This document shows, one piece after another, positions 2,874-24,961 of a stretch of DNA of 64,000 bases. The DNA comes from Pontiella desulfatans (GTDB lineage Bacteria; Verrucomicrobiota; Kiritimatiellia; Kiritimatiellales; Pontiellaceae): positions 1,426,001 to 1,490,000 of the forward strand of contig NZ_CAAHFG010000001.1 in assembly GCF_900890425.1 (NCBI RefSeq), in the 5' to 3' direction. How positions within the stretch are numbered: position 1 is the first letter of the stretch; the number at the start of each line of letters is the position of its first letter. The translations under genes and the position numbers were made by a program. The notes under the pieces are model-generated. The model had not been told where the DNA came from, did not search any database, and saw only the letters and a list, made by a program, of their open reading frames with translations.

Positions 2874-2967
2874 TATATACGGGGTTTGAATCTGCGTTTG
2901 TGTGGAGGATGGTGTGCGCGTGTGGGAAATCAACCCGCCATATGCACGATCCATTGGACATACGAAT

Positions 2968-5313
2968 ATGATCAAGTCAACCCGAACTGTTCCAGATGCA
3001 AAAGACCCCTCCCTGGAATCGGCCTTGAACGCCGCCGATGGCTATTTGAATGCCGGTCTTCCGGTGGAGGAGCGGGTTGAGCTTCTGCTTTCCAGCATGT
3101 CGGTGGAAGAAAAGGTCAACCAGTTGACCTCCGCCTATGCCAAGACCGACCAGGAAGGCAATGCCCCCGGAGGGCTTGCCGAGGAATTCAAAACCAGGTT
3201 GGAGCAAGGTCTCGGATCGGTGCAGTTCGTCAACCTTCCGCACGATGCCGGGCAATCCGCGGAATTGGCGAATATGATCCAGACCCACCTGCTGGATCAA
3301 AGCGGACGGGGGATTCCCGTCCTGTTGGTCGGCGAGGCCTGCCATGGCCTGATTGCCCACAAGGCCACTTCGTTTCCCCAGGCCATTGCGCTTGCATCAA
3401 CCTGGAATCCGGCTCTGGTTGAACGCGTTTATGCCGTTGCCGCGAAGGAAGCCCGTTCCCGTGGAAACCATCTGATGAATACCCCGGTGCTCGATCTGGC
3501 GCGCGATCCGCGCTGGGGGCGCATGGAGGAAACCTATGGCGAAGACGTCCACATGGTTACGCAGATGGGCCTGGCCGCCGTGCGGGGGCTGCAGGGGGTA
3601 GGCGAAACGGTGGATGCAAACCGGGTGGTGTCGACACTCAAGCATTTCGCGGCCTATGGACAATGCGATGGCGGGCGCAACTTTGCCCCGACCAATGTTC
3701 CGCGACGCCTGTTTATGGAGGAGATCCTCGAGCCGTTCCGTCAGGTTTTTTCGAAGGCCCAAGCCTGGGGGGTAATGCCGTCCCATAGCGAAGTCGACGG
3801 CGTGCCTGCCCACGGCGATGGGCGCCTACTGGTCAATCTGTTACGCAAGGAGTGGGGCTTCAAGGGCGTGGTGGTTTCCGACTACCACGACATCCACCGC
3901 CTGGACCTTCTGCACCATGTGGTACCGACCCAGCAGGATGCCGCATTGCTGGCCCTGCGGGCGGGCGTCACCCTGGATTTCCCGGAAGGGGCCAGCTACC
4001 GGACCTTGATCGAATCGTTGGACTGCAACCCTGAATATAGGCCGGACCTCGATGACCGGGTGCGCGAGGTCCTGACCCTGAAGTTCATGCTGGGGTTGTT
4101 TGAGCAACCCTTTGTGGATGCCGGTAGGGCTGTGGAGATCCAGGATGATCCGGAGAAAAAAAACCTCGCATTGGAAGCGGCGGAAAAGGCGGTGATCCTG
4201 CTGAAAAACAGCAAGCATACGCTTCCGCTGGATAAGGGAAAACTAAAGCGCATCGCGGTCATCGGCCCCAATGCCGAAGAGACGATCCTGGGCGGCTATT
4301 CACACTGGATGACCTCCGCCCGGTCCATCAAGGACGGGCTCGAAGACTATTTGACCGGAAGTGATGTCGAGATTTGTTTTGCGAGGGGGTGCGGCATTAC
4401 GGCCGGCGGCAAAACCTTTGCCCAGCTGGAAACCGGCGAAGAACTCAACACGCCGGTTGAAACGATTCCCTATGACGTTGAGCAGGAATCCATTCGTGCC
4501 GCGGCGGAAATGGCGAAAGGGTGCGATGTGGCCGTGGTCTGCGTGGGGGATGACTACTTCAGTACCCGCGAGGCCTTCTATATGCGGGAGACGCTCGGCG
4601 ACCGGGGCAGCATCGACCTGGTCGGAAACCAGGAAGCCTTGGTTCAGGCAGTGATCGAAACCGGCACGCCCACGGTGGTGGTGCTGATGCATGGGCGTTC
4701 CATCTCGATCAACTACGCCAATGCGCATGCCGCCGCGATATTGGATGGGTGGTACCTGGGCGAGGAGACCGCAACGGCCATCTGCAAAACGCTGTTCGGC
4801 GAAAATAATCCCGGCGGCAAACTGGTGGTCTCGGTGCCGCGCAGCTCGGCCCATCTTCCCTGCCATTACAGCCAGCGCCATTCGGCCAATTGGAAAGGCT
4901 ACCTGTTTGAAGACAGTTCCCCCTTATATTCCTTTGGCTTTGGACTGAGCTACACCACGTTCCGGCTCGATAACATCGCGTTGTCCGCTTCCGTCATCCA
5001 GGCGGGGGATTCCTGCGGGGTCTCGCTCGATGTCACCAACACGGGCCAGATGGCCGGGGATGAGGTTGTTCAAATCTATCTCCGCGACGTGGTGGGTTCC
5101 ACCACGCGTCCGGATAGGATGCTGAAGGCGTTCCGGCGGGTATCGCTGGAACCCGGCCAAACAAAACACCTTTCCCTGACCCTCGATGCGGAGGCCTTCG
5201 AAATGATCGATCTCGATTTTGAACGCGTCATCGAACCGGGCGCATTCACGGTCTTCGTGGGCACATCGTCGCGCATGGAGGATCTGGTGGAATTGACGCT
5301 TTTCGTTGAGTAG
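2968..5313 (+). CDS. Glycoside hydrolase family 3 (beta-glucosidase/beta-xylosidase-like)
   Basis: A 781-residue GH3 enzyme. The N-terminal barrel carries DLARDPRWGRMEETYGED, KHFAAYG and the nucleophile motif VVSDYH (Asp305 from this start). The alpha/beta sandwich follows (ILLKNSKHTLPLDKGKLKRIAVIGPNA), then a C-terminal fibronectin-III-like domain (GDEVVQIYLRDVVGS to FVGTSS). GH3 enzymes release terminal beta-linked glucose or xylose from oligosaccharides. No signal peptide is seen, so it is probably cytoplasmic, acting on oligosaccharides imported by the adjacent symporter. A GTG at 2902 in the same frame would add 22 residues. I prefer ATG 2968 because homology begins shortly after it, but no clear ribosome binding site decides. 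Confidence 0.93.
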   Translation: MIKSTRTVPDAKDPSLESALNAADGYLNAGLPVEERVELLLSSMSVEEKVNQLTSAYAKTDQEGNAPGGLAEEFKTRLEQGLGSVQFVNLPHDAGQSAELANMIQTHLLDQSGRGIPVLLVGEACHGLIAHKATSFPQAIALASTWNPALVERVYAVAAKEARSRGNHLMNTPVLDLARDPRWGRMEETYGEDVHMVTQMGLAAVRGLQGVGETVDANRVVSTLKHFAAYGQCDGGRNFAPTNVPRRLFMEEILEPFRQVFSKAQAWGVMPSHSEVDGVPAHGDGRLLVNLLRKEWGFKGVVVSDYHDIHRLDLLHHVVPTQQDAALLALRAGVTLDFPEGASYRTLIESLDCNPEYRPDLDDRVREVLTLKFMLGLFEQPFVDAGRAVEIQDDPEKKNLALEAAEKAVILLKNSKHTLPLDKGKLKRIAVIGPNAEETILGGYSHWMTSARSIKDGLEDYLTGSDVEICFARGCGITAGGKTFAQLETGEELNTPVETIPYDVEQESIRAAAEMAKGCDVAVVCVGDDYFSTREAFYMRETLGDRGSIDLVGNQEALVQAVIETGTPTVVVLMHGRSISINYANAHAAAILDGWYLGEETATAICKTLFGENNPGGKLVVSVPRSSAHLPCHYSQRHSANWKGYLFEDSSPLYSFGFGLSYTTFRLDNIALSASVIQAGDSCGVSLDVTNTGQMAGDEVVQIYLRDVVGSTTRPDRMLKAFRRVSLEPGQTKHLSLTLDAEAFEMIDLDFERVIEPGAFTVFVGTSSRMEDLVELTLFVE

Positions 5314-6946: not shown

Positions 6947-9244
6947 ATGATGAAAAAAACATTGGGCATCATGATCGCGGCAGGAACGCTGGCGAGTATG
7001 GCAACGGCACTGCCGGTGGAGCTAACGTGGAGTACGGTGGCGCCGGAGGATGTGGAATTTTTCGAGGATTATTTGAATACCGTTCCCGGTGCCGGAGGAA
7101 CGACCCATTCGGCGGCGAGCGTGGGCATGGAAATCTGGGCGGGCAATGGAACTGATTTGTCTAGTCCCACCAATCTTCCCATCAATCTTAGCAACGACCC
7201 GGGGCTCAACAACCAAGTGGCGGCCCGGTCTGCCAACAGCAAACCTTCCGTGCTGCTCCACAACAATACAAACGTGATTGCCCGGGTGGATGACATCTTT
7301 CTTTTTTCAGGATGGGGGCCGTATGGTGAAGCCAATTCCTTCCTGGTTCAGGTGGGAACCACCTGGTACATCTCCGACGCCCTGCCCGCAGGTGAATATG
7401 GCTCGACGGCAGGGGGGGATTCCTACAATAACCCCGGCATGCTGATGGGCTATTCCACGCACGACACGGTGTGGCATGTCTTCCATGAAGGCGATTTCGA
7501 TTCGGCCGGATTCAGCAACATGATTCCTTCGGCCGTTGGAACGGCGCTGCCCAATGGAGACATTGTAAACACCGGCATGTTGCAGAATGGCGCCAACAGC
7601 TCGTATATCAAAACCTATGCCATTACGGCCTACACGCCGCCGGGCGATGCCTATTACGTTGCGGCAACGCCGACCGACTGGACGGATTCGACCGCATGGA
7701 GCGATGGTTTTGCTGCAAATGGCGGAACCGTATATTATGCAACCAACAGTGTGGTGTTGGAGACGCCGGCCGCGACGTCCACCTTCCCTGGAATTTCGTT
7801 AAGCCTGTATGCCCCGCAACGGATGGAAATCATGGCCAGCGGAGCCGAAGTGATTACGGTTCCCGAGCTGAAGATGTATGGGGCCGATCTTGGCGCCGGC
7901 ATCATCGATGCGGCGGAAGCCCGGATTGACGGGGCGATTTTGGTTCAAACCGATTCCACGTTCTCCGGGGCAATGGATGAGTCGCGCGACATTCGGGTTC
8001 TTGCCCGGATTGTCAGCGATGCGGATATCACGCTGTCTGCACCTTCACGCACGATCTATATCGATAACCCCACGAATGAGTTCACTGGAACCTGGATCGT
8101 TTCGGGCGGTGCTGCGGAGTTCGCTTCCGTTGGTTCGATCGGCGGTTCGACCGTTTTCGATGTGCAAAGCGGAACATTGCGTATTCAGGACAACTGGAAG
8201 GCATCCGGCTCGGTGACGGTGGCGGACAGCCCTGACGCCTTGGTGGATCTGGGCAACTATGACTGGGCCCTTTCCTCGTTGGTGATTGGCAGCTCCAACG
8301 TGATCGATGGAGCCGTTTACACGGTGGCTGAACTGAATGCCATCGGCGCGAACCCGGTCTTTTCCGGTACAGGAACAGTCCTGATTGGCGCACTTCCGCC
8401 TCCGCCGCCAGAGGATCTGCTGGTGGGGCTGGATACGTGGAGCGGTACCACTGCCCCTGCCGTGCCCTTTACGGCGACAGATATCTCAGCAACCGCGACG
8501 GCGTCTGGTGGCTGGAGTATCACAGATGGCTCCGGTCGTGGCTCCAGTAAGGACGGAACCTGGGGCACCTTTGATGGCAATGGGCATTCTGCAAGCTCGA
8601 ACACAACAGCTGGAGTTGACAACTATACGTTGACCAATGGCAAGACGGACGGCGAGATTACGATTTCGTTTACGAATAACACGGGGGCGGCCATCGACTT
8701 AGGTGCCCTTCATTTTGACGCCGTTGCATTCCGTCCAAATGCCGCCAGAACCTATGCCGTGAACGTATTGGCGGGAAGCGACATTACCGTTGGAACGGTC
8801 TTCACTTCTGCTGCCGGTGCGATCACCAGTCTGGGCGGAAACCTCTTAACAGATGATTTAGACCCCTTAACACACGACCAGCATGACGATATTGATGTCG
8901 GTCTGAATGGTCTTGAAGACCACACCCTCGAAGCGGGCGAAATGGCCATTATCCAGCTGGCGTTCTCGGGAGGAACCGGTTCCGGTTCGGGCCACCATCT
9001 GTTCGTGGACAACGTGGGGATTTCCTCGGCGGCCGCATCGGGGCCGCCCTCGGCGCCGGTGATGACGGTTGAAACTTCCGGATCGGATATGATGGTTTCC
9101 TGGGCGTCGTCGGCATCATTCCAACTCCAGACCCGTCCGAACATGGCGGTGGGTGAATGGATGAATGTTCCCGGAGGAACCACCAGCCCGGTAACGGTGC
9201 CGATGACCAACGATGTTGAGTTCCTGCGGTTGGTTTGGCCATAG
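6947..9244 (+). CDS. Large secreted beta-rich protein with locus-specific shared domain
   Basis: A 765-residue exported protein of no family I recognise. ATG 6947 is chosen because GAAGGAGGG (6934-6942) is an excellent ribosome binding site and the protein then starts with a clear signal peptide (MMKKTLGIMIAAGTLASMATA). Residues ~25-480 are low-charge beta-strand sequence with repeat-like stretches resembling autotransporter-type passengers. Residues ~490-695 are a domain also found in the next two genes (WGTF...LHFDAVAFRP...DDIDVGL..LEDHTLEAGE...HHLFVDNVGIS). The last ~60 residues end in EFLRLVWP, a tail style recurring in other proteins of the window. It may be a surface or matrix glycan-binding protein (inference). 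Confidence 0.8.
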   Translation: MMKKTLGIMIAAGTLASMATALPVELTWSTVAPEDVEFFEDYLNTVPGAGGTTHSAASVGMEIWAGNGTDLSSPTNLPINLSNDPGLNNQVAARSANSKPSVLLHNNTNVIARVDDIFLFSGWGPYGEANSFLVQVGTTWYISDALPAGEYGSTAGGDSYNNPGMLMGYSTHDTVWHVFHEGDFDSAGFSNMIPSAVGTALPNGDIVNTGMLQNGANSSYIKTYAITAYTPPGDAYYVAATPTDWTDSTAWSDGFAANGGTVYYATNSVVLETPAATSTFPGISLSLYAPQRMEIMASGAEVITVPELKMYGADLGAGIIDAAEARIDGAILVQTDSTFSGAMDESRDIRVLARIVSDADITLSAPSRTIYIDNPTNEFTGTWIVSGGAAEFASVGSIGGSTVFDVQSGTLRIQDNWKASGSVTVADSPDALVDLGNYDWALSSLVIGSSNVIDGAVYTVAELNAIGANPVFSGTGTVLIGALPPPPPEDLLVGLDTWSGTTAPAVPFTATDISATATASGGWSITDGSGRGSSKDGTWGTFDGNGHSASSNTTAGVDNYTLTNGKTDGEITISFTNNTGAAIDLGALHFDAVAFRPNAARTYAVNVLAGSDITVGTVFTSAAGAITSLGGNLLTDDLDPLTHDQHDDIDVGLNGLEDHTLEAGEMAIIQLAFSGGTGSGSGHHLFVDNVGISSAAASGPPSAPVMTVETSGSDMMVSWASSASFQLQTRPNMAVGEWMNVPGGTTSPVTVPMTNDVEFLRLVWP

Positions 9245-9331
9245 GGCCCACACCCCCGGTTTAAGTTTTGAGAGGTTGGTTGAGCGGCACCTCCATGCGG
9301 GGTGCCAAATTTAAAGCAAAAGGAGAATGAA

Positions 9332-10048
9332 ATGAAAAAAACAATAGCAATACTTACGGTTGCGGTTTGTGCAGGAGCTATGTCAGCTTCGGCAGCATTA
9401 CTCGTAGGCTGGGATGATAACTTTAATCAACCCAATAACGGCTCCACTACTCCTCCTCCCAAGACAGCAACTGGTTTCTCGGGTTTGGCAACTCCGGACG
9501 CCAATTTAAATTGGTCACGCACGGCTTCAGCCGCGAGCACCGATGGCACTTTCGGTACTTTAGCAGGCGCAGGCACCGAAACTGGTTTCTCAGATGGATT
9601 GGCTTTGAATAACGGAAACAATGGCCATTTCGACTTCACGGTCACGAACGGAACCGCCGATGATTATGACTTGGATTTTTTCCACTTCGACGCGGGCGCT
9701 ACCAGACCGAAGGCGGCGGATAACTGGACTCTATCAGTTCTGTCAGGTGCCCTTACTGTAGGTAATGTAACCAGTGGTGTTTCTCCCAATGGCGGAGGCA
9801 CTCTCGTTTGGGCTGAGAATGACCTCGACTTGACTGGTCTTGCTGACAACACACTGGAAGCAGGGCAATCGGTCGTATTTCGATTAGATTTTGTGCAAGA
9901 TGGCACCATCCAATATGAGGGTGGTCACAACCTGTATTTGGACAACATCGCTATCAGCGGAACTGTGATTCCGGAACCGGCCACGCTGGGTCTGGTTGCT
10001 GCATTCGGTGGCGCAGTACTTTTTATCCGCCATCGCTTCATGATCTAG
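9332..10048 (+). CDS. PEP-CTERM protein made of the shared beta domain
   Basis: A 238-residue exported protein. The start has AAGGAGA at 9319-9325. Layout: signal peptide (1-22), one copy of the ~200-residue domain shared with both neighbours (23-212: VGWDDNF..., DGTFGTLAG, FFHFDAGATRPKAADNWTLSVLSG, LADNTLEAGQ, GGHNLYLDNIAISG), then a PEP-CTERM sorting signal (IPEPATLGL, hydrophobic helix, RHRF). PEP-CTERM tails are processed by an exosortase, and the protein usually ends up at the cell surface or in the extracellular matrix; no exosortase gene is in this window. It is probably transcribed with 6947. Two terminator hairpins follow. Confidence 0.88.
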   Translation: MKKTIAILTVAVCAGAMSASAALLVGWDDNFNQPNNGSTTPPPKTATGFSGLATPDANLNWSRTASAASTDGTFGTLAGAGTETGFSDGLALNNGNNGHFDFTVTNGTADDYDLDFFHFDAGATRPKAADNWTLSVLSGALTVGNVTSGVSPNGGGTLVWAENDLDLTGLADNTLEAGQSVVFRLDFVQDGTIQYEGGHNLYLDNIAISGTVIPEPATLGLVAAFGGAVLFIRHRFMI

Positions 10049-10090
10049 TCTGATCAATACAACCGATGCACTTGAATGGGTGCAAGGTTA

Positions 10091-10113
10091 AGGGGGCTGG
10101 CAAGCCCCCTTTT
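10091..10113 (+). terminator. Intrinsic terminator after the PEP-CTERM gene
   Basis: Perfect 8-bp stem AGGGGGCT/AGCCCCCT with a 4-base loop, followed by TTT. Confidence 0.7.
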
Positions 10114-10119
10114 AAGGAG

Positions 10120-10150
10120 CGGGGGCTGTTCAGTCCCCGTATTCTTTTTA
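10120..10150 (+). terminator. Second hairpin with T-run
   Basis: Stem CGGGGGCTG/CAGTCCCCG with a 2-base apex (near perfect), followed by the T-rich tail TATTCTTTTTA. With the previous hairpin this forms a tandem terminator between 9332 and the following glycosidase gene. Confidence 0.65.
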
Positions 10151-10170
10151 GTGAAAGCGGACGTGTGAAG

Positions 10171-13100
10171 ATGAGGAATATGATGCATCGGCTGAAAAAG
10201 AGTCCGTGGACTACCAGGCAACGAAATGCGCTTTGGATCGTTTCGTGCATTCTTCTCTTCAGCCTGGCACCCCGGGCCTTTTCGGCCATTTCCTATCCGT
10301 ATGCATTGCCGAACCAGCTCAACGCCACGCTCAAGGTGGACACGGGCAGCAAGACCCACTTCAACAACCTGCTGCTGGGGCTGAATACCAACTTTCCGGA
10401 AAACCAGTATGGCTCCGATGGCTATAACGATCCCGACGGTCAGGATCTGATCACGACCTGGAATCCGCCTGCGCTGCGCTTCCCCCACGGCGTGTGGGCC
10501 AACTTCTACGATTGGGAAGTGGATGGCCGCCGGATCTATGACGGCTATGACGGAACCTATGTGGGAGCCGTGACGAATGTTCCTCACCTGCGTTACGGCT
10601 TCCCCGGTTTCAACACGCTCCACAACAACCTGAATTTTGATGTGCTGTTTACCTGGAACGTTAACTACGACAGCCCCGCAAAAGGCGTTGCCCGTTTGCA
10701 GGATCGGGTCGCCAAGGGATTCGACGTAAAATATATCGAGCTGGGCAATGAACACTTCTGGAAAGATCAATGCAGTGAAGCGGTGGATACCGCGCCAGAA
10801 TACATTGCCGTGGCGCAGGCGCACTCGGCAGCGCTGAAGGCGGAAGACCCCTCCATACAGATATCCGTTCCCGTTTCGTGGCGAACCACCGGATACCATG
10901 CCACCTATAACAACGCCCTCATGGCCGACATGAGCTATTACGATGCGGTGTCGCTGCATAAATACCTTCGGACCGACGGGAACTCCGCGACGGAGGTCAA
11001 GGAGGCGCTGAAAAGCCGCTACACCATGATTGAAACCGGGGAATACATTCGTTCCCTCTTCCCCGGGAAACCGATCTGGCTTTCGGAATGGTCGGTGAAG
11101 GTCGATGCCGACGGGAATAATGCCGTTTCCGTTCTCGGCATGACCGAGGTGTATCTGGGCATGTTGAACCGACCGGATTTGTTCGAGACGGCCGACTATT
11201 TCCAGATCCATAACCACGACCCGATGGTCCTGTACGATAAAAACGCCAACCCCAAACATGTGAAGACGAGCATTGGCGCGGCCTACGATATTATCCGCTA
11301 TGTTTTTGAAGACAGCGAAGTCTACGACAGCAGTATCAATTCCAGCGGTATCGAAGAGAATTTGGATGCCGTCAGCGCCGAGGCGGTCATCAACGGCGGC
11401 GACGTGCTGGTCTTTGCCGTCAACAAAACCACCAACAGCGTGCCGCTTGGTTTGATCTTCGACGATGAACTCTACACCGGCAAGTTCTCCCATGGGGCAT
11501 TGAGCTTCAGCGATATCAATGATTTCCCAACCTTCAATTTGGGCGATGACGCTCTCGTTTCCGTTTCTCCGGTGAATGGCGGAATCATGCTTCCTCCCTT
11601 GTCGATCAGCAAAATCAGCGGACTGGCTCCGGGCAGTGGCGCGGTATCCGGTGAAGTGATCATCGAAGCGGAGCAGGCCCAGTTCCAATCTGCATTTTCG
11701 CCCTACACGGTTTCCAGTGAACTGGACGGCACCACCTACATCGTAACCTCAAATGGCACCCCGACCATCAACTACAACAGCGTGGTCATGGCTTCGGGAG
11801 GCATCGCCTCCTACGCGTTCAACTTGTCTGCAACGGGCGATGTGCTGATCGAAGCGCGCGCCGATTTAATAGACTCCAATGCCGATTCGTTCTGGCACCG
11901 CCTCGACGGCGGAACCTGGATCAAGCAGGACGGCTTTAGCGGCGGCGGCTGGCGCTGGTTCACGCTGAACAGCTACACCAATTTGGCGCCCGGTTCCCAT
12001 ACGCTCGAAATTGCCCGCCGCGATCGCGCCAGGATCGACCAGTTCCGGCTGAGTTCCACGCACGCAGAAATCAGCGTGCCGGGCTTGGTAATCGAAGCGG
12101 AAGAGGCTGATGGACAATTGCTTTTCAGTCCGTTTGCTGCGGTCACGTCCAACGGAGCAACCTACGTCGAAGTCCCGCTTGCTTCTGGAAGCGCAAACTA
12201 CAACAGCGTCGCAGAACCCGATGGCCGGGCGACCTACGACTTTTTCCTGATCAACCCCGCCGACATCGTGCTCGAAGCCCGCGTCGATTTCCCAACCTCC
12301 GGAAGCGACTCCTTCTGGCACCGGATGGATGGGGGCAGCTGGACGAAGCAGGACGGCATCAGCGGCGGTGGATGGCGCTGGCTGACCCTTGCCAACTATG
12401 CAAACCTGGACGCCGGTGCCCATCAACTCGAAATTGCCCGCCGTCAGGCGGGAGCCCGGATGGATGCGTTCCGCCTGGTTCCTTCTGCCGGTGGATTCCT
12501 GAGTCCGGAAACCATCGCCGATGCCGGTGGCAACCGGTCGGTGGTCGATGCCGATTTCGATGGCGTGGAATGGATCGCGTTGGATGGAAGCGGCTCCGTG
12601 CCCCAGGGTGGACTTTCGCTCACCAGCTATGTCTGGAAACGGGGTTCCGGGCAGATTGCCACCGGCATCCGTACGAACGTGGCGCTTCCGCTGGGCACCC
12701 ATCTCATTACCTTGCAGGTCACCGACAGCGGCGGTGCAACAAGGAGCGATACCGTAACGATTGCCGTTGAGCCCGCTGTGGGGTCGGGTGATGCCCCCCT
12801 TGTTTTGGCCGGTTGGGATACCTGGAACAATGCCTCTGCCCCGAGTGCGTCGGTGCTCGCGCCGGATGTCGGCGGGACGGCCGTGACAACCGCGGAACAG
12901 CTCGCCTGGAATGTGGTCGACGAACGGGGTGCCAGTGCCGATGGCGACTGGGGAACCTTTGCGGGGCCGCCGACAGCCAGCACCATAACGAATGTGGATA
13001 ATCAAAACATGGAGTTGCCCAATGCGGCCACTGGCGGAGCGATCACCTTCACGATTTCCAACAATGGCGCGTCCGATCTCGAGTTGGGTGCCTTTCATTT

Positions 13101-13791
13101 CGACGCCTATGCCTTCCGTCCCAAGGCCGCCCGGGCTTACGAATTGAGTGTGCTGGCAGGCGGCGGCATTACACCCGGTGTGATCTACACGTCGGCGGAC
13201 GATGAGATCACCGACGTTGGCGGCGCCTGGGATAACTTCGCCCATGATGACATCGACCATTCCCTGGCCGGGCTTACCGACCATACCCTCGGCGCGGGGG
13301 AATCGGTCGATTTCCTGCTGGCCTTCTCGAGCGGAGCCGGCGACGGTTCCGGCGGCCACGATCTGTGGGTGGATAATGTGGCCATCAGTTCCATGCGTGT
13401 TGATCCCTATCCCGACAACGATGGCAACGGCCTACCGGACTGGTGGGAAATCTTTTTCCTCGGTAGTACCGGGCAGGTGGCCGGTGTGGACAGCGACGGC
13501 GACGGACTCTCGAACGGGGATGAGTTGATTGCCGGATCGGATCCCGATGATGCCTACTCCGCGTTGGTCATTCATGAATTCGAAGAAGCAATCGGTGGAG
13601 GGTACACGGTTAAGTGGGACAGCTATAGCGAGCGCACCTATCATGTGCTGAAAACGTCCAACCTCGTTTCCAATGCTTGGCCGTCCGTTTCCGGCCCGCT
13701 GCCGGGCACCGGCGGGGAGATGGCGTTCACGGATGCTTCTCCGGTATCGCCGTCGAATTCGTTCTACAAGATCGAGGTCGCCAAACCGTGA
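10171..13791 (+). CDS. Modular clan GH-A-like glycoside hydrolase with two CBM-like modules, PKD-like and shared domain
   Basis: A 1206-residue exported enzyme. Layout: signal peptide ~1-39; a TIM-barrel-like catalytic domain ~40-490 with ELGNEHFW (likely acid/base Glu194) and WLSEWSVK (likely nucleophile Glu306); two tandem ~130-residue carbohydrate-binding-like repeats (~495-775, each with IEAE, DSFWHR.DGG.W.KQDG and GGGWRW); a PKD-like domain ~776-865; the ~200-residue domain shared with the two previous genes ~875-1075; then a DxDGDG calcium-loop-like spacer and C-terminal beta module. I cannot assign a GH family with confidence; GH39, GH51 or GH86-like clan GH-A is plausible. The catalytic domain is paralogous to 15865-17301. 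ATG 10171 is chosen because an upstream ATG at 10066 would place coding sequence through two terminators. Confidence 0.85.
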   Translation: MRNMMHRLKKSPWTTRQRNALWIVSCILLFSLAPRAFSAISYPYALPNQLNATLKVDTGSKTHFNNLLLGLNTNFPENQYGSDGYNDPDGQDLITTWNPPALRFPHGVWANFYDWEVDGRRIYDGYDGTYVGAVTNVPHLRYGFPGFNTLHNNLNFDVLFTWNVNYDSPAKGVARLQDRVAKGFDVKYIELGNEHFWKDQCSEAVDTAPEYIAVAQAHSAALKAEDPSIQISVPVSWRTTGYHATYNNALMADMSYYDAVSLHKYLRTDGNSATEVKEALKSRYTMIETGEYIRSLFPGKPIWLSEWSVKVDADGNNAVSVLGMTEVYLGMLNRPDLFETADYFQIHNHDPMVLYDKNANPKHVKTSIGAAYDIIRYVFEDSEVYDSSINSSGIEENLDAVSAEAVINGGDVLVFAVNKTTNSVPLGLIFDDELYTGKFSHGALSFSDINDFPTFNLGDDALVSVSPVNGGIMLPPLSISKISGLAPGSGAVSGEVIIEAEQAQFQSAFSPYTVSSELDGTTYIVTSNGTPTINYNSVVMASGGIASYAFNLSATGDVLIEARADLIDSNADSFWHRLDGGTWIKQDGFSGGGWRWFTLNSYTNLAPGSHTLEIARRDRARIDQFRLSSTHAEISVPGLVIEAEEADGQLLFSPFAAVTSNGATYVEVPLASGSANYNSVAEPDGRATYDFFLINPADIVLEARVDFPTSGSDSFWHRMDGGSWTKQDGISGGGWRWLTLANYANLDAGAHQLEIARRQAGARMDAFRLVPSAGGFLSPETIADAGGNRSVVDADFDGVEWIALDGSGSVPQGGLSLTSYVWKRGSGQIATGIRTNVALPLGTHLITLQVTDSGGATRSDTVTIAVEPAVGSGDAPLVLAGWDTWNNASAPSASVLAPDVGGTAVTTAEQLAWNVVDERGASADGDWGTFAGPPTASTITNVDNQNMELPNAATGGAITFTISNNGASDLELGAFHFDAYAFRPKAARAYELSVLAGGGITPGVIYTSADDEITDVGGAWDNFAHDDIDHSLAGLTDHTLGAGESVDFLLAFSSGAGDGSGGHDLWVDNVAISSMRVDPYPDNDGNGLPDWWEIFFLGSTGQVAGVDSDGDGLSNGDELIAGSDPDDAYSALVIHEFEEAIGGGYTVKWDSYSERTYHVLKTSNLVSNAWPSVSGPLPGTGGEMAFTDASPVSPSNSFYKIEVAKP

Positions 13792-14021: not shown

Positions 14022-14126
14022 TGCATGGCGTGTGTGAAATGCGGGATGGATGGCGTTCTATGACTGTTGCCAGCTGGTGTTTGGCAGTTGCAATGTTGCG
14101 CAGTTGAGGGAGATTTCCGGCAATCC

Positions 14127-15752
14127 ATGACGGCAGTGGTTCAGAATAGAGCGAGTATATGGAAAGGGGGATTGCTGTGTTGCTTCGTCTTTTCTGGTTG
14201 GGTTGGGGGTTCTGCCCAGGCAGCCGTTTCGCTCCGTTGCGATTTCAGCAGCGCAGAAAACCAGCGCGACCCCATGCGGTATCACTGGGATGTCAGCAAC
14301 CGCATCTCGCCGATGCGCCGGTTTAATAGGCCGGTCGGCGAAAAACCCTATATCTGTGTGGTTCGGCCGTTGGGAGGAAAATCCAAGGATGGCGAGAAGC
14401 TTATCGATGAAGACACCTACAAGTGGGATGGCGGCAACTATGTCTACGATTGGGCGCCGCTCAAGACGCAGATCGACACCGTCCAGTCCGGGGCGCGTAT
14501 CTTCCAGTTGATGATCGATAACGTACCCTGGGCCTTTCAGCGGGGGATGGATTTGAAGGGGCAGCAGGAGGTGGAGACCTACGGCAATGCCTGGCCGCCA
14601 AACGATCCTGGGGCCTGGTCTCTTTATATCCAGGAAATGCTGAAGGAGCTCATCAAAACCTATGGTCGGGAACGGGTCGGGCAATGGCGGTTTTGCATCG
14701 GTCGCGAAATCGGAACCGCCGGTCACTGGCGAGGAAGCATGCCGGAGTTCTTCGACCACTACGCATTAACGGTGAAAGCCGTTCATTCGATCCTGCCCGA
14801 AGCAAAGGTCGGTGCCCATTTCCTGTGGGCATCATCCAATAATTCCTACGGACCGGACTTTGTGAAATGGTGCAAGCAAAACAACGTCCACTATGATTTC
14901 GTCGGCGTATCCTATTATCCGTTTTACAATAGGAGCAACCGCGTCGATATCGAGCGCGTATACCGGCTTGATTTTGCGCCCATCAAAGACATTCCGGAGT
15001 GGAATCCGGAGGCGACGTTGGAAATCCATGAGTTTTCACTGATTAAAAGCATGAGCAAACAGGGGAACAGTTTCGATAATGCGCCCAAGGCCCACTCGGA
15101 AGCGTTCACGGTGATGCTCGGAAAAATGATGTATGACCACAATATGCACCATGTGTTCCGATGGGGCACCGGCGAAAACAAGCTGGCCGAGCAGGAATTC
15201 CTCCGGATGAAGGGCAACGTCTATTACGCCGGTTCCAAACAGGGCGAACCCCTCGTCGCCGGCAATAGGATCGATGCTGTGTTTGCACGGGATATGAAGA
15301 ACAATCAGTTCAATATCATGGCCTACAACTACAACGCCGACCCATCGACCAAGAAAGCCGAGCCGGTTGCAATTGCCACCACCCTTCCTTTTCCTCCGTC
15401 CACCCGGATTAAAACCCGTACGGCCGCCTTTGGCGAATCCGGCTTGGAGTGGTCGGACTGGAAAATGCAACGAACCCAATCCGGTAGTGGCAGGGAGGTG
15501 TCGATGCTGGAACTCGGGGTCGGGTTGCCGTCTTTCTCGTTCTGCAAGATCGAAATTCAGGGGCCGGAAGCGGGCCGGCCCACACGCGTTTTAACCAACC
15601 GGGCAGACCAATCGAACGTTGAAGTGGAACTGGGGGATTTGGACGACGGGAACCTGGTTTGCTATATGCGGGGGCGTCGCTACGTCATTCCCATCACCTC
15701 CCTCAGCGATGATGATCAGCTCTACCTGAAAAAATGGGCGGAAGGGAAATAG
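14127..15752 (+). CDS. GH39-like (clan GH-A) exported glycosidase with C-terminal SHD1-like domain
   Basis: A 541-residue exported protein from ATG 14127; a TTG at 14067 is possible but adds an implausible leader. After the signal peptide (to about residue 32) comes a barrel-like domain recalling GH39: YVYDWAPLKTQIDTVQSGARIFQLMIDNVPWAF, and WRFCIGREIGTAGHW where GH39 enzymes have Asn-Glu-Pro (Glu194 here), then ATLEIHEFSL (Glu302, likely nucleophile). The Asn before the acid/base Glu is replaced by Arg, so either the family is divergent or the chemistry is altered. The last ~55 residues (VELGDLDDGNL...YVIPITSLSDDDQLYLKKW) look like an SHD1 (SLA1 homology) domain, common in PVC secreted proteins. 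Xylosidase-type activity is only an inference. Confidence 0.75.
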   Translation: MTAVVQNRASIWKGGLLCCFVFSGWVGGSAQAAVSLRCDFSSAENQRDPMRYHWDVSNRISPMRRFNRPVGEKPYICVVRPLGGKSKDGEKLIDEDTYKWDGGNYVYDWAPLKTQIDTVQSGARIFQLMIDNVPWAFQRGMDLKGQQEVETYGNAWPPNDPGAWSLYIQEMLKELIKTYGRERVGQWRFCIGREIGTAGHWRGSMPEFFDHYALTVKAVHSILPEAKVGAHFLWASSNNSYGPDFVKWCKQNNVHYDFVGVSYYPFYNRSNRVDIERVYRLDFAPIKDIPEWNPEATLEIHEFSLIKSMSKQGNSFDNAPKAHSEAFTVMLGKMMYDHNMHHVFRWGTGENKLAEQEFLRMKGNVYYAGSKQGEPLVAGNRIDAVFARDMKNNQFNIMAYNYNADPSTKKAEPVAIATTLPFPPSTRIKTRTAAFGESGLEWSDWKMQRTQSGSGREVSMLELGVGLPSFSFCKIEIQGPEAGRPTRVLTNRADQSNVEVELGDLDDGNLVCYMRGRRYVIPITSLSDDDQLYLKKWAEGK

Positions 15753-15864: not shown

Positions 15865-17301
15865 ATGCAACGCATCGCGCACTATTGGTGGTTGGGGAGA
15901 TTTATGAAGGTTTGTTTTTGCCATAGGTTTAAGATGTCAGGCGTTTGCCTGTTGCTGGCGGCGGGTGCCCTTGCGGATAAGGGTGAAATTGACGCTCTGG
16001 AATATCCATTCACTGTTCCGGGTTCGGCAACCGCATCGGTGTCGGTGAATACGGCAAAGCGGACTCCGGTCAACAATCTGCTGCTGGGGCTGAATGCCAA
16101 CTGGCCGGAAAACCTTTACGGCAAGATCGGCTATAACCATCCGGACGCGCAACGGCTGATCCGCCGGTTCAAACCCTCCTCCCTGCGTTTCCCCCACGGG
16201 GTCTGGGCAAAATTTTACGACTGGGAAAGCGATGGCCGGCGCAAAACGGATAACTATAAAACACCGTATGATGCTTCGGTCACCAACCATCCGACGTTGA
16301 AATATGGTTTCGACGGCCTGCATCAACTGCATCAGGAACTAAAGTTCGATACCGTTTTCACCTATAACCTGAACTATGACTCTCCCGAAAAAGGGGTGCG
16401 CCGCCTGAGGGATCGCAAGGAAAAGGGATTCGATGTCCGATGGGTTGAACTGGGCAACGAACCATTCTGGAAAACCCAGCGTAGCGAGGCCACCAAGACG
16501 CTGGAAGATTACATGGCCGTTTCAAAGGCACATGCCGCCGCATTGAAGGCCGTGGATCCCAAACTCAAGGTCTCGGTTCCCGTTCACTGGCGCGATGCGG
16601 AGACCAATCCGTGGAACCAACCGTTTTTCAAGGAAACCTATTTCGATGCCATCACGGTGCACAAGCATATGGGCGGAGGGGCAAAGGAAACCCTCTTTAC
16701 CGGGGACATCCTCTCCAAGATGGCCAATACCTTTCGCACGATTTTCCCGAACCACCCCATCTGGCTGACGGAATGGTCCACAGGCAAGGGCGACAATGCC
16801 ATCACGGTGCTGGGCATGGCCGATGGATATTTAACCCTGTTTGAAAACCAGGATATTTTCGATATCGCCTGTTTTTTCCAGATGAATGCAGGGCATCCCT
16901 TTTTCCTGTACGACAAAAAAACCGGAGTCCATACCAAGACGGCGTCCGGCGCGGCCTATGAAATGGTTCGCGACCTTTTTGAAAACGCGCAACTGCTGGA
17001 GTGCCAGGTCGAGTCCGTCCAGGTTGGGGAGGGGTTGGATGCGGTTAGGGCGGCTGCCGTCCTGAAGGATGGAACGGTATCGGTTTTTGCCATCAATAAA
17101 ACCCCGGTGGGTGTGCCGCTCAAGCTGGGCATTGACCGTGCGGAGGATGCGCCGGCCTTCAGGCACCAGGCGTTGTCGTTCGATGGCGTCAACCAATTGA
17201 AGACGTTCGCCCCGGAGGAAAAACTTCCGGTCGTGAGCGTGCCGCGAGGCAGCGAAGTCGTGCTGCCGCCCTTGTCGATCAACCGTATCGATCGGTTATA
17301 A
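15865..17301 (+). CDS. Clan GH-A-like exported glycosidase, single-domain paralogue of 10171-13791
   Basis: A 478-residue exported protein aligned end-to-end with the catalytic half of 10171-13791: shared NNLLLGLNxNxPENxYGxxGYNxPD, LRFPHGVWAxFYDWExDGRR, ELGNEPFW (Glu199) and WLTEWSTGKGDNAITVLGMADGYL (Glu303). The paralogue's binding modules and shared beta domain are absent. Start 15865 has AGAGAAG 8 bp upstream; ATG 15904, with GGGGAGA just before it, gives a more compact signal peptide and is a real alternative. It heads a run 15865-21693 with the sulfatase and rhamnosidase behind the operator at 15776. Retro-beta-glycosidase chemistry is inferred from the two Glu motifs; the substrate is unknown. 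Confidence 0.8.
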   Translation: MQRIAHYWWLGRFMKVCFCHRFKMSGVCLLLAAGALADKGEIDALEYPFTVPGSATASVSVNTAKRTPVNNLLLGLNANWPENLYGKIGYNHPDAQRLIRRFKPSSLRFPHGVWAKFYDWESDGRRKTDNYKTPYDASVTNHPTLKYGFDGLHQLHQELKFDTVFTYNLNYDSPEKGVRRLRDRKEKGFDVRWVELGNEPFWKTQRSEATKTLEDYMAVSKAHAAALKAVDPKLKVSVPVHWRDAETNPWNQPFFKETYFDAITVHKHMGGGAKETLFTGDILSKMANTFRTIFPNHPIWLTEWSTGKGDNAITVLGMADGYLTLFENQDIFDIACFFQMNAGHPFFLYDKKTGVHTKTASGAAYEMVRDLFENAQLLECQVESVQVGEGLDAVRAAAVLKDGTVSVFAINKTPVGVPLKLGIDRAEDAPAFRHQALSFDGVNQLKTFAPEEKLPVVSVPRGSEVVLPPLSINRIDRL

Positions 17302-17371
17302 ACACCTGGTGTGTCTTGAAAAACGGGCAACTTTTTGTGAAGGATGTATCAGGCATGACGGAGATGGAACT

Positions 17372-18790
17372 ATGAATGGAACCGGATGGGGATTGGTGCT
17401 TTTGTGCGGGACGGTATTCTTGTCGCAAGGGCAGGCGGCGGAAACCTCGCGAAAAAACATTGTCTTTATTCTGGCCGACGACCAGCGCAACGATGTGCTC
17501 GGCTGTTACGGAAATGATCTCATCCAAACCCCGACGATCGACCAGCTCGCGTCGAACGGGGTGCGGTTCGAAAACTTTTTTTGCGAGACGCCCATCTGCA
17601 GTGCGAGCCGCGCAACGCTCATAAGCGGGCTTTCCCAGCGCACGCATGGGTACAACTTTGGCGAGCCGGCGGTGGATGCCAACTATATTCCCACCAGCTA
17701 TCCGGCCTATCTGAAGGCCAGTGGCTACCGCACGGGCTTCACCGGGAAATATGGGTTCCGTTTCAGCAAGAACGACCGAAAGCAACAGTTCGATTTCTTC
17801 AAACCCTACGACCGCAACCCCTACCTGAAAAAGATGCCGGACGGTTCGTTGCGCCACGAAACCGACCTGTGCGCCGACGCGGCGATTGAATTCATCAAAG
17901 GCAACCCCAAGGGGCAGCCGTTCTGCCTGTCGGTCAGCTTCAATGCATCGCATGCGGAGGACAGCGATCTGCGCCCCGGGTTCCACTTCCAGTGGCCGGA
18001 ATCGACCGATGGCCTCTATGAGGAGATCACTCTGCCGTCACCCAAGCTGGGCGACGATAAATATTTCGAGGCGCTTCCCGGATTCCTGAAGGATGAAGGC
18101 GAGCTTTCGCGCGCCCGCTATTTCTGGCGCTGGGATACGCCCGAAAAATACCAGGTCAACCTGCGCGCCTATTTCCGGATGATTACCGGCATCGACAACG
18201 CCGTTGCCCGGATTCTCGCCGAGCTGAAGACGCAGGGGCTGGATCAAAACACGGTGGTGGTCTATACGGGCGACAACGGGTTCCTGATGGCGGACCGCGG
18301 GCTGGCCGGAAAGTGGAACCACTACGACCAATCCCTTCATGTTCCGTTCATTGTCTACGACCCGGCCCTGCCGGAGCATAAACGGGGCCGCGTGGTTACG
18401 GAGCTCGGCACGCATCTCGATGTTGCCCCGACGATCGTCGAGTGGGCCGGCTTGTCCAAGCCGGCCGTCTACCAGGGGCGGTCGCTGGTCGGGTTGGTGG
18501 AGGATGGGCTGGTTGCGGATTGGCCGCAGGAGGTCTACTGCGAACATAAATTCAAACGCTACAACAACTGGTACGGGGTTCGCGGAAAGCGGTATAAATA
18601 TGCGGTCTACTATGAAGAGCCGGATGGGCCATACGAGTGTCTTTACGATTTGGAAAAAGATCCTGCCGAGGTTGCAAATCTGGCGGCCAACCCCGAATAT
18701 GCCGACGTTCGCAAGGACATGGTCCGGCGGCTGGACGCCTACCTCAACGCCTTCCCGGAGGCATCGGGCAAACCTGACAATAAAGAATAG
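17372..18790 (+). CDS. Sulfatase (formylglycine type, S1)
   Basis: A 472-residue exported sulfatase. ATG 17372 follows GGAGA with good spacing and gives signal peptide MNGTGWGLVLLCGTVFLSQGQA. Metal-site start NIVFILADDQRNDVLGCYG; activation motif CSASR with Cys76 as the residue converted to formylglycine (C-x-A-x-R variant); GKWNHYDQSLHVPFIVYDPAL later; VYTGDNGFL for the second metal ligand pair. It hydrolyses sulfate esters on glycans, and the maturation enzyme is not in the window. It sits 8 bp before the GH78 rhamnosidase, suggesting coordinated desulfation and rhamnose release. The exact S1 subfamily is not determinable by eye. Confidence 0.95.
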   Translation: MNGTGWGLVLLCGTVFLSQGQAAETSRKNIVFILADDQRNDVLGCYGNDLIQTPTIDQLASNGVRFENFFCETPICSASRATLISGLSQRTHGYNFGEPAVDANYIPTSYPAYLKASGYRTGFTGKYGFRFSKNDRKQQFDFFKPYDRNPYLKKMPDGSLRHETDLCADAAIEFIKGNPKGQPFCLSVSFNASHAEDSDLRPGFHFQWPESTDGLYEEITLPSPKLGDDKYFEALPGFLKDEGELSRARYFWRWDTPEKYQVNLRAYFRMITGIDNAVARILAELKTQGLDQNTVVVYTGDNGFLMADRGLAGKWNHYDQSLHVPFIVYDPALPEHKRGRVVTELGTHLDVAPTIVEWAGLSKPAVYQGRSLVGLVEDGLVADWPQEVYCEHKFKRYNNWYGVRGKRYKYAVYYEEPDGPYECLYDLEKDPAEVANLAANPEYADVRKDMVRRLDAYLNAFPEASGKPDNKE

Positions 18791-18798
18791 GGTACTTA

Positions 18799-21693
18799 AT
18801 GAAAAAATGGATAGATACGCGATGGTTCGTTGCAGGAATGATGATGACACTTGTACACGCTAATAGTTTTGGGGTTTCAATGCCGATCGATCTAACCATG
18901 GGGGAAGGTTTTGTGAACCCGCTCGGTTTCCACGATGCCACGCCGGTCTTTTCGTGGAAGCTGCCGGTCGGCGTTCAAAAACAGACCGCTTATCAACTCG
19001 TGGTGAAAGGCGATGGCCTGCTTTGGGACAGCGGTTGGGTTGAATCGGACCGGTCGGTTTTTGTTCCGTACGGGGGCAAGGCACTGGCTTCCCGGCAACA
19101 GGGCGAATGGCAAGTCCGGTTCCGCGATGAAAACGGAAAACAATCGGAATGGAGTGAATCCGCAACCTTTGAACTCGGTCTTCTTTCCAACGCCGATTGG
19201 AAGGCGCAGTGGATCCGTCCCTCCATGCCGGACGCGCCTCCCGTGCCCGAATTCAAATTGATCAAGGCAACCTACCGGGCGAAGGAAAAGCACGAACTCC
19301 AGAAGGACTTGACGGCGTTCTATCGGAAAAAAATCAAGGACAACTTCCTGGAAGTCAACGTGAGGAACCAGGTCCTTGGCGGGGATCCCGCCGAGGGATC
19401 GGTGAAGGAACTGGTGCTGGTCTATCTGTTGGACGGCGAAGAACGAACGAGCATCGTGGAGGAAAACAAAAAGGCAACCTTCCCTCCGATGGAGGCGAAG
19501 GTGGAATCCGTTGCCTGGCTGCGCCGCGAATTTCCGGTGTCTGGGGAGGTCGGGCGCGCCCGACTGTATGTCACGGCGCGCGGGGTGTTCGAAGTGCATC
19601 TGAATGGCGAAAAAGTCGGGAACGATGCGTTCGTTCCCGGGTGGACCTCCTATGCGGACCGGCTCGATACGCTGACGTATGATGTCACTGATAAAATCAT
19701 AGGCGGGCAGAACGCCATCGGGGCGTTGCTGGGGGCGGGATGGTATGCCGGACGTCTGGGCTGGGCGCATGACAAAGGGTTGTTCGGCCGTCATCCGGAG
19801 CTGTTGCTCCAGCTGGAAATCACCTATCGGGATGGCCGCAAGGTGAACGTCGTTTCCAATGGGGAGTGGAAGGCCACGCTGGACGGGCCGATCGTTGTCT
19901 CGAGCATCTACGACGGGGAAACCTACGATGCCCGCAAGGAGATGCCCGGATGGGATAAACCCGGCTATGACGACGCGGCCTGGGGGGCGGTCGGGGTCAA
20001 TGCCGAACCCGGTGCGCAACGGCTCGTTCCCAAGCCCTTTGCCCCGGTCCGGGTAACGGAAACGCTGGCCACCCGGAAAATCACCGAGCCCGAACCCGGT
20101 CGTTTCGTGTTCGACCTCGGGCAAAACATGGTGGGCTGGCCGGTGCTGGATATTCCGGTTGAAAAGGACCGGACTGTAACGCTGCGTGTGGCCGAAATGC
20201 TCAACCAGGACGGCACGATGTATACGGCGAACTATCGCTCGGCCAAAGCAACCGACTTCCATACCGCCGCCCAGACCGGCACGGTTTCGTGGCGGCCCAC
20301 CTTTACCTTCCACGGGTTCCGCTATGTGGAGCTTTCCGGCCTGCCGGAGGGCGCCAAGCCGAAGACGGATTGGGTCCGCGGCGAGGTGCTCCATACCGAT
20401 CTGCCAAGGATTGGTTCGTTCTCCTCGTCGCACGAAAAGCTGAACCAACTCTACAGCAACATCACCTGGGGCCAGCGCGGCAACTTCCTGGATATTCCCA
20501 CCGACTGCCCGCAGCGCGACGAACGCCTCGGCTGGACGGGCGATGCCCAGGCCTTTGCCCCGACCGCGCTGCTCAACTACGACTGCCACGCCTTCTTCAA
20601 GAGCTGGCTCGGCTCCATGCGCGACGACCAGTTTGCCGACGGCCAAATTCCCCATGTGGTTCCCGACATCCTGAATGCCGGGGGCAGCCCCGGCTGGATG
20701 GATGCCGCCACGATTATCCCGTGGGATGTCTATGTGAGCACCGGCGATGCGGAGATGCTCTCCGAAAACTACGGCATGATGGAAAAGCTCGTGGCCTGGT
20801 ACCGGGGGCGGTCAAAGGACGGGCTCATTTCCAAGATGGGTGGTTTCGGCGACTGGCTCCAGCCCTATGCCAAGGACCAGAAGGGCGATACGCCGAAGGA
20901 GCTGCTCGGTACCGCCTTTTACGCCAATAGCGTGCAGATTCTGGCCGACAGCGCAACGGTGCTCGGCAAAAAAGCCGATGCCGCAAAATATGGGGCGGAG
21001 GCCGCGCGGGTGAAGGCCGCCTTTGCCAACCATTATTTCGATGCGGATGGAAAGCTCCGGAACGCCCCGGAAACACAGACGGCCTATCTGCTGGCGATCG
21101 GCTTCAACCTGGTGCCGGATGAGCTTCAGAAGAAGGCGGCAAGGCATCTGGTTGCTTTGGTCGATGCGGCCGACGGCCACCTGCGAACCGGCTTCCTCGG
21201 AACCCCGTTCATCGCGCAGGTGCTCGACGACATGGGCCATGGCGATCTGGCCTATTCCCTTCTTTTCAAGGAAACCTATCCCTCGTGGTTCTTCTCGATC
21301 AACCAGGGCGCCACCACCATGTGGGAGCGCTGGAACAGCTACAGCCATCAGGATGGCTTTGGCAATGTGACCATGAATTCCTTCAACCACTATGCCTACG
21401 GCGCCATTGGCGAATGGATGATCGAACGCGTCGCCGGACTGTCGCTGGACCCGGAACATCCCGGCTACCGGCACTTCTTTGTGCGTCCGCTTTCCGGCGG
21501 CCCGCTCACGTCGGCGCGCGCCGAACTGGAGACCGCCTATGGCAAGGCGGCGAGTGGCTGGAGAAAGGAAGGCAACCGCCTCGCCATGGAGGTCGTCGTT
21601 CCGCCCAATACCACCGCCACCGTCGAATTCCCGAATGGCCGCCCATCGGAAACGGTCGCCCCGGGGGTGCATCGCTTTGAGCTGGAACTGTAG
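18799..21693 (+). CDS. GH78 alpha-L-rhamnosidase
   Basis: A 964-residue exported GH78 enzyme. Ig-like N-terminal domain (LGFHDATPVFSWKLP), jelly-roll modules (ARLYVTARGVFEVHLNGEKVGNDAFVPGWTSY), then an alpha6/alpha6 barrel with DCPQRDERLGWTGDAQ (Glu575, the position of the general acid in characterised GH78 enzymes), TTMWERWNSY (Glu843, base) and a C-terminal beta sandwich. It releases terminal alpha-L-rhamnose by inversion. There is an unusual ~80-residue insertion near residues 150-235, rich in charged residues, between the first and second domains. It lies 8 bp behind the sulfatase and 111 bp ahead of the GH2 gene. Confidence 0.95.
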   Translation: MKKWIDTRWFVAGMMMTLVHANSFGVSMPIDLTMGEGFVNPLGFHDATPVFSWKLPVGVQKQTAYQLVVKGDGLLWDSGWVESDRSVFVPYGGKALASRQQGEWQVRFRDENGKQSEWSESATFELGLLSNADWKAQWIRPSMPDAPPVPEFKLIKATYRAKEKHELQKDLTAFYRKKIKDNFLEVNVRNQVLGGDPAEGSVKELVLVYLLDGEERTSIVEENKKATFPPMEAKVESVAWLRREFPVSGEVGRARLYVTARGVFEVHLNGEKVGNDAFVPGWTSYADRLDTLTYDVTDKIIGGQNAIGALLGAGWYAGRLGWAHDKGLFGRHPELLLQLEITYRDGRKVNVVSNGEWKATLDGPIVVSSIYDGETYDARKEMPGWDKPGYDDAAWGAVGVNAEPGAQRLVPKPFAPVRVTETLATRKITEPEPGRFVFDLGQNMVGWPVLDIPVEKDRTVTLRVAEMLNQDGTMYTANYRSAKATDFHTAAQTGTVSWRPTFTFHGFRYVELSGLPEGAKPKTDWVRGEVLHTDLPRIGSFSSSHEKLNQLYSNITWGQRGNFLDIPTDCPQRDERLGWTGDAQAFAPTALLNYDCHAFFKSWLGSMRDDQFADGQIPHVVPDILNAGGSPGWMDAATIIPWDVYVSTGDAEMLSENYGMMEKLVAWYRGRSKDGLISKMGGFGDWLQPYAKDQKGDTPKELLGTAFYANSVQILADSATVLGKKADAAKYGAEAARVKAAFANHYFDADGKLRNAPETQTAYLLAIGFNLVPDELQKKAARHLVALVDAADGHLRTGFLGTPFIAQVLDDMGHGDLAYSLLFKETYPSWFFSINQGATTMWERWNSYSHQDGFGNVTMNSFNHYAYGAIGEWMIERVAGLSLDPEHPGYRHFFVRPLSGGPLTSARAELETAYGKAASGWRKEGNRLAMEVVVPPNTTATVEFPNGRPSETVAPGVHRFELEL

Positions 21694-24859: not shown

Positions 24860-24873
24860 TTCAACGATATGAA
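24860..24873 (+). promoter_or_regulatory. Putative LacI-type operator (site 6)
   Basis: TTCAACGATATGAA immediately after the GH2 stop. An ATG at 24869 lies inside this site, which argues that the next gene begins further downstream. A CCCC/GGGG inverted repeat (24849-24858) touches its left side. Confidence 0.6.
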
Positions 24874-24961
24874 ATCTACAGGTTTTGCAATACGTCATGG
24901 AATCGGGGAGTGTGTTTGGCGATTGGTCCGGGGGGGGGTGGAAAGAATGGGATGTGAAGGC

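Follow-up and report, generated by a model that had tools for sequence, protein, structure and literature searches.

A putative glycan-binding module shared by unrelated secreted proteins of Pontiella desulfatans and other marine bacteria

In a 64,000-nucleotide stretch of the Pontiella desulfatans genome (contig NZ_CAAHFG010000001.1, positions 1,426,001 to 1,490,000; the window), three consecutive genes for otherwise different proteins carry the same domain of about 200 residues. What is the role of a domain that follows a passenger-like region in one protein, stands alone with a PEP-CTERM tail in the next and belongs to a glycosidase in the third? Judging from the sequence comparisons described here, it is a module whose copies have passed between the enzymes of marine bacteria, and the clusters in which it is most frequent are those degrading rhamnose-rich sulfated polysaccharides. 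We consider it likely that it is a non-catalytic, glycan-binding module resembling the carbohydrate-binding modules (CBMs), with subfamily A serving a sulfated rhamnose/uronate polymer and subfamily B other sulfated glycans.

One domain in three consecutive genes

Open reading frame (ORF) calls and BLASTP located homologous domains of 188-206 amino acids (aa) in the three genes:

6947-9244, plus strand: gene 1, secreted 765-aa protein: PATR/passenger-like beta-rich region, then the domain, then a short tail at the C-terminus (ORF list)
8414-9031, plus strand: domain copy 1, subfamily A, 206 aa (BLASTP; family profile 318 bits)
9332-10048, plus strand: gene 2, 238 aa, signal peptide, domain and PEP-CTERM tail and nothing else (ORF list)
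9395-9958, plus strand: domain copy 2, the solo form, subfamily A, 188 aa (BLASTP; family profile 273 bits)
about 10092-10109 and 10119-10140, plus strand: tandem pair of terminator-like hairpins separating genes 2 and 3 (consensus scan)
10171-13791, plus strand: gene 3, 1206-aa glycosidase with a clan-A-like catalytic part, CBM6-like region, PKD-like region, the domain, TSP3 and a C-terminal tail (Pfam)
12796-13392, plus strand: domain copy 3, subfamily A, 199 aa, chosen for the structure model (BLASTP; profile 340 bits; AlphaFold2, AF2)

In pairwise BLASTP the copies are 37% (E 4e-21), 47% (E 3e-45) and 39% (E 4e-22) identical, and their local alignment scores exceed those of 500 shuffles by 22-44 standard deviations. 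Fifty-four residues are invariant in all three, a minority of which remain so across the wider family. This bears out the initial annotation, made from the sequence alone, which had recognised one domain in three consecutive genes and three different architectures: passenger plus domain, solo domain with PEP-CTERM tail, and glycosidase plus domain. The motif pattern given there holds approximately and not exactly (copy 1 has GLDTW, copy 2 has GWDDN and ADNTLEAGQ). The genes are indeed consecutive, but the single operon region proposed for them is uncertain because the two terminator-like hairpins separate genes 2 and 3; the scan that found the hairpins was by consensus only, and the number of sites in the region is not above that in shuffles. 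Nor is the trio a local triplication, as the genome holds 32 copies of the domain.

The protein lengths of 765, 238 and 1206 aa agree with internal ATG starts immediately before the signal peptides. The passenger region of gene 1 is homologous to domain-bearing proteins of two other clusters of the same genome. Copy 2, the most divergent of the three, clusters on the domain tree with a solo copy of genome G016. The C-terminal PEP-CTERM of gene 2 (PEPATLGLVAAFGGAVLFIRHRF) is visible by eye and scores 15.4 bits in Pfam (cut-off 20.7) and 13.7 bits in NCBIfam (cut-off 16). For gene 3, the Pfam scores lie below the cut-off for Glyco_hydro_cc (12.7 bits) and CBM_6 (15.9), and just under it for K319L-like PKD (24.9) and TSP3_bac (24.8); its catalytic part is 46% identical to the protein encoded at 15865-17301, which passes the Glyco_hydro_cc model (21.2 against a cut-off of 21).

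At 9032-9241 and 13546-13788 the domain is followed by C-terminal tails with the pattern '..W.(D/S)V.G....F.(R/K)(L/I)..'. The pattern is recurrent in this genome, both behind the domain and in numerous other proteins that are secreted, and is possibly a sorting or anchoring signal.

A sequence family with patchy distribution

A profile built from the three copies was searched against the P. desulfatans genome. Its 11 strong matches (222-340 bits), which lie in three clusters on one contig, constitute subfamily A, and 21 weak matches (19-66 bits) subfamily B. An iterated profile unites A and B as one family, with the B copies then reaching 70-164 bits.

Neither Pfam nor NCBIfam gave a consistent match to 43 members of the family, and the family profile found no match among PDB sequences; scattered weak matches in these collections were discarded as inconsistent between members. 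None of the Pfam CBM models exceeded its cut-off in the 43 members, the best being CBM_3 (E 0.016, in 3 members), and CBM_4_9 was not among the matches to the domain. The same members showed no match to the ricin family and no Dockerin or cohesin signature within the domain. A possible extra repeat in L169, a CBM_4_9-like region (58-192), was rejected since the family profile does not match it. In agreement with the initial annotation, then, these searches assign the domain to no named family and the profile matches no known CBM by sequence. The family is real and apparently uncatalogued in Pfam, NCBIfam and PDB sequences, the CAZy CBM and X-module lists being outside the comparison.

In an even sample of genomes, 10 of 387 Verrucomicrobiota have A-like matches (E <= 1e-10), as does 1 of 392 Planctomycetota, that one being the query genome itself; the broader family is present in 20 of the 387 Verrucomicrobiota. 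A short-pattern scan of about 85,000 species genomes, which detects close relatives only, returned Opitutae, Pontiellaceae, Pirellulaceae, Bythopirellula and Haloferula and no others. The plasmids searched contained no match to the domain. Because the spread across phyla is patchy and the loci have enzyme sets in common, we suggest that the domain has spread with its loci by transfer.

Predicted fold and structural relatives

Isolated copy 3 was modelled by AF2 with 16 relatives in the alignment (mean predicted local distance difference test score, pLDDT, 90.4; predicted template modelling score 0.89). The model has eleven strands and is free of helices. Foldseek and VIA-align place it among the jelly-roll beta-sandwiches, matched over the whole domain, with structural Z scores of 12.4 for the MAM domain of meprin (4gwm), 11.8 for CBM61, 10.7 for CBM8, 10.6 for both CBM22 of Xyn10B and CBM4-2, and 10.2 for CBM35. 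We claim no single structural family because many of them tie within about 1-2 Z units, and families outside the match list are not counted as excluded.

With the jelly-roll CBMs (CBM4, CBM8, CBM11, CBM22, CBM35, CBM61) the domain shares the predicted whole-domain fold (Z 10-12, root mean square deviation about 3 A), an accessory place on enzymes, occurrence in tandem, exchange among unrelated catalytic domains and, presumably, binding residues in loops. It differs from them in its sequence, which is 9-12% identical to solved structures and matches no Pfam CBM, and in that its ligand is a proposed one. The likeness to CBMs is thus one of structure, and the best reading is a new CBM-like family, i.e. 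one of a known kind. The MAM domains of meprin and neuropilin are also beta-sandwiches, and 4gwm is the best single structural match. However, MAM domains are found outside the cell in animals and contain conserved cysteines, whereas the window copies are cysteine-free and their context is bacterial polysaccharide degradation.

A further comparison is offered by the ulvan-binding domain of a Nonlabens ulvan lyase, likewise an accessory domain C-terminal to an enzyme for a rhamnose-uronate polymer. It is described as a ricin/lectin-like domain of 18 kDa with a Por secretion signal behind it; it can be expressed separately, and its binding to ulvan is proven (PMC5361163). Yet it belongs to a different sequence family: the window domain has a jelly-roll model and no ricin match, and its binding to ulvan would be a supposition.

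Conservation in subfamilies A and B

In an alignment of 43 A and 22 B copies, S47, D49, G53, N89, D103, D162, L165, D193 and N194 are kept in both subfamilies. W38, R44, W52, N76, R108, R113 and H188 are invariant or nearly so in A (42-43 of 43) and lost or replaced in B. Most of the A-specific residues lie in loops of the predicted model. An Arg/His/Trp set of this kind would suit an anionic sugar, and the divergence between A and B appears to fall at the positions that would read the ligand.

Partners and exchange of the module

Subfamily A is fused to at least six unrelated protein types, or stands solo with a PEP-CTERM tail, in Kiritimatiellae, other Verrucomicrobiota and Planctomycetota. 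It adjoins the catalytic parts N- or C-terminally (BNR_4, clan-A glycoside hydrolase (GH), pectate-lyase-like and other proteins). The nearest solved structures of the BNR_4 propellers are L-rhamnose-alpha-1,4-D-glucuronate (Rha-GlcA) lyases (E 3e-41 and 8e-51) and GH145 proteins. Among the BNR_4 enzymes of the polysaccharide lyase (PL) and GH families PL42, GH145, PL24 and PL25, these partners resemble the Rha-GlcA lyase FoRham1 and the GH145 protein BT3686 (PMC8377490); such enzymes supply the catalytic part, and the accessory domain is separate from them. Further partners are the clan-A glycosidase of the window with its homologue in G016 and similar planctomycete proteins (L056, L059), a pectate-lyase-like protein, PATR passengers, which precede the domain in Pontiella and follow it in other Verrucomicrobiota, and families without Pfam match labelled EVWMG, F3497 and PLjelly. 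Subfamily B includes fusions to lambda-carrageenase-like enzymes, one of them at G000:C3:964469, in fucosidase/sulfatase loci where sulfatases, GH29, GH95 and GH2 lie nearby.

Three unnamed partners recur in rhamnosidase loci, namely the N-terminal parts of L060 (about 310 aa), L065:3497-7201 and L062, for which Pfam and NCBIfam gave no match. They are likely enzymes acting on the same polymer. The AF2 model of the EVWMG partner (L060) had a pLDDT of 47. A PL28-like identity, considered for the L062 partner, was dropped, as Pfam, PDB and NCBIfam returned no match.

Solo PEP-CTERM forms were found in nine genomes, and tandem pairs and triples of the domain occur. One protein of 698 aa (L137:11051-13144) carries three tandem domains and no recognised catalytic part and lies beside two solo copies. 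In the third cluster it is not the solo domain that follows the PATR protein but another PEP-CTERM protein (L067:10713-11504), whose domain is different and unrecognised. Several planctomycete copies have a catalytic domain before them and a distinct type I dockerin behind. Such a dockerin follows some copies in the Pirellulaceae, and in L056, L058 and L059 Dockerin_1 matches nothing but a separate segment after the domain.

The domain tree groups the copies partly by genome and partly by partner. In Bythopirellula, the domains of four enzymes of three types are separated by very short branches, and an EVWMG and a PLjelly enzyme are alike only over 741 nucleotides, with 91% DNA identity. Two EVWMG enzymes are 97% identical in DNA over domain and tail and about 64-73% elsewhere. 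In the third Pontiella cluster, three unrelated proteins have 89-90% DNA identity over the domain, and the DNA block common to L067:8283 and L067:11588 stops at the domain end. The module is exchanged between unrelated enzymes as an independent unit.

Linkage to rhamnosidase loci

Each of the 11 A copies in the P. desulfatans genome has a GH78 or GH106 rhamnosidase gene within 36 kb, and 8 of them have one within 25 kb, as does only 1 of the 21 B copies. Since a permutation of clusters within this genome is weak alone (p 0.07), the linkage was tested in nine genomes. Twelve of their 18 A clusters lie within 25 kb of a rhamnosidase gene (GH78/GH106), where random placement expects 1.6. The copies are thus linked to glycan loci and not scattered away from them. 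Genome G021, with 2 GH78 matches, has no A copy; the matches in G000 and G016 number 30 and 15.

Possible role of the domain

The initial annotation had proposed a glycan-binding or scaffold-docking role. Glycan binding is favoured, indirectly, by the CBM/MAM-type fold, the many unrelated partner enzymes, shuffling as a unit, the rhamnosidase/sulfatase loci and the subfamily-specific loop conservation. The jelly-roll domain would tether secreted enzymes to a sulfated polysaccharide, and the solo PEP-CTERM form would probably tether the cell surface to the polymer. The family would have diverged in its ligand: A copies, through their conserved Arg/His/Trp loop surface, would most likely bind an ulvan- or rhamnan-like polymer; B copies are carried by enzymes from other loci for sulfated glycans. 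A more precise assignment of the A ligand to ulvan itself is not adopted. The nearest structures of the partners are gum arabic-type Rha-GlcA lyases, with ulvan lyases more distant (GH105 and GH88 were outside the search), and ulvan is not among the P. desulfatans substrates reported in the available text of PMC7356697.

Several observations weigh against this interpretation. No rhamnosidase lies near 6 of the 18 A clusters. Two of them (G311:C11 and G275:C22) adjoin BNR_4 genes, and that of G016 lies at 28 kb, just past the limit; the other three, in the related genomes G823, G816 and G834, are in genomes with 1-2 rhamnosidase matches located elsewhere, and one of them is near CotH, lamin-tail and GH10-like genes. 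Conversely, rhamnosidase-rich relatives can lack the domain (G005 with 16 matches, G048 with 14). The linkage is an association and not a series of independent events, because descent or transfer connects the loci with one another. The fold class also serves protein-binding domains (MAM, ephrin receptors), and it is by inference that we assign to the domain glycan binding and a ligand, and to the solo form a role at the cell surface.

The main rival is protein docking, in which the anchored solo PEP-CTERM protein would be a receptor and the enzyme copies would dock homotypically or to another surface protein, giving a cell-bound complex. In its favour, the window and five other genomes (loci L123-L126, L137) have clusters that combine solo PEP-CTERM with fused copies, the solo copy repeatedly has a domain-bearing PATR-type protein as its neighbour, and protein contacts are made by MAM and related folds. 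We nevertheless regard docking as unlikely: the separate type I dockerin after several planctomycete copies would duplicate the function, the domain stands at either protein end and in tandem, no solo copy was seen close to the fused copies of other loci, no conserved partner domain was found, and the invariant loop set is cationic and aromatic, as expected for anionic sugars. A combined version, in which exosortase-anchored solo copies and enzyme or PATR copies would assemble on the polysaccharide as a non-cellulosomal surface complex, glycan-specific loops choosing the enzymes recruited, is a rather improbable variant.

That several pairs of duplicated DNA take in tail and domain together, and that the domain is frequently the last but one element of the protein, would also be expected of a ligand-free spacer or folding aid spread as a convenient C-terminal secretion cassette with tail or dockerin. 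But the domain is also found N-terminally, in tandem and solo, the L067 block ends with the domain, and loop conservation specific to a subfamily is unexpected for an inert spacer, so the chances of this explanation are small. The invariant polar residues D49, D103, R108, R113, H188 and D193, and a size within the range of jelly-roll lyases, could hint at a domain that is itself catalytic, e.g. a small lyase or esterase. This is very improbable for a domain that is mostly joined to another, often identifiable, catalytic domain, occurs as many as two or three times in one protein and has binding modules as its nearest folds.

Verrucomicrobiota are described in PMC8857213 as specialised in sulfated methyl pentoses (fucose, rhamnose), in keeping with the ecological setting of the domain. 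For P. desulfatans, PMC7356697 gives 56 rhamnosidase genes and substrates that may include rhamnans; in our searches its genome had 35 GH78 and 27 GH106 matches, fragments among them. Marine Planctomycetota and Verrucomicrobiota possess hundreds of enzymes for sulfated polysaccharides, and little is known about how these are held on the substrate. A Pfam-invisible module, with A in rhamnose loci and B on carrageenase-like enzymes, would be a tag by which substrates could be assigned to unannotated enzyme families, give a short residue list for tests of sulfated rhamnose/uronate recognition, and possibly serve as a binding probe for algal polysaccharides.

Gene neighbourhood in the window

The three genes are accompanied in the window by the following genes:

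2902-5313, plus strand: GH3 glycosidase
14067-15752, plus strand: GH39 alpha-1,4-L-rhamnosidase-like protein (NF042992 E 5e-161, below the model's cut-off; PF01229)
15865-17301, plus strand: paralogue of the gene 3 catalytic part, without accessory domains (46% identity; Glyco_hydro_cc)
17309-18790, plus strand: sulfatase (PF00884 E 2.5e-53)
18799-21693, plus strand: GH78 alpha-L-rhamnosidase (PF17389 E 8e-118)
24869-26755, plus strand: GH78 rhamnosidase
33097-35946, minus strand: GH78 rhamnosidase
35989-39426, minus strand: GH106 rhamnosidase (PF17132 E 4e-176)

Lacking accessory domains, the paralogue at 15865-17301 is a natural comparison for the contribution of the module. A further GH78 rhamnosidase gene (28341-33055) is split: its N-terminal part (28341-29927) is followed by a DDE transposase ORF (29924-31165, PF01609) and by the C-terminal fragments 31304-31903 and 31988-33055 with a TAG between them. 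It looks like a gene interrupted by an insertion sequence element. A patch of mobile elements comprises a phage-integrase ORF (41543-42418), 43304-44221 and a pair of ORFs (44901-45962 and 46641-47702) of equal length (354 aa) with the same ends, an integrase core (rve/HTH_21) and a spacing of 1740 bases.

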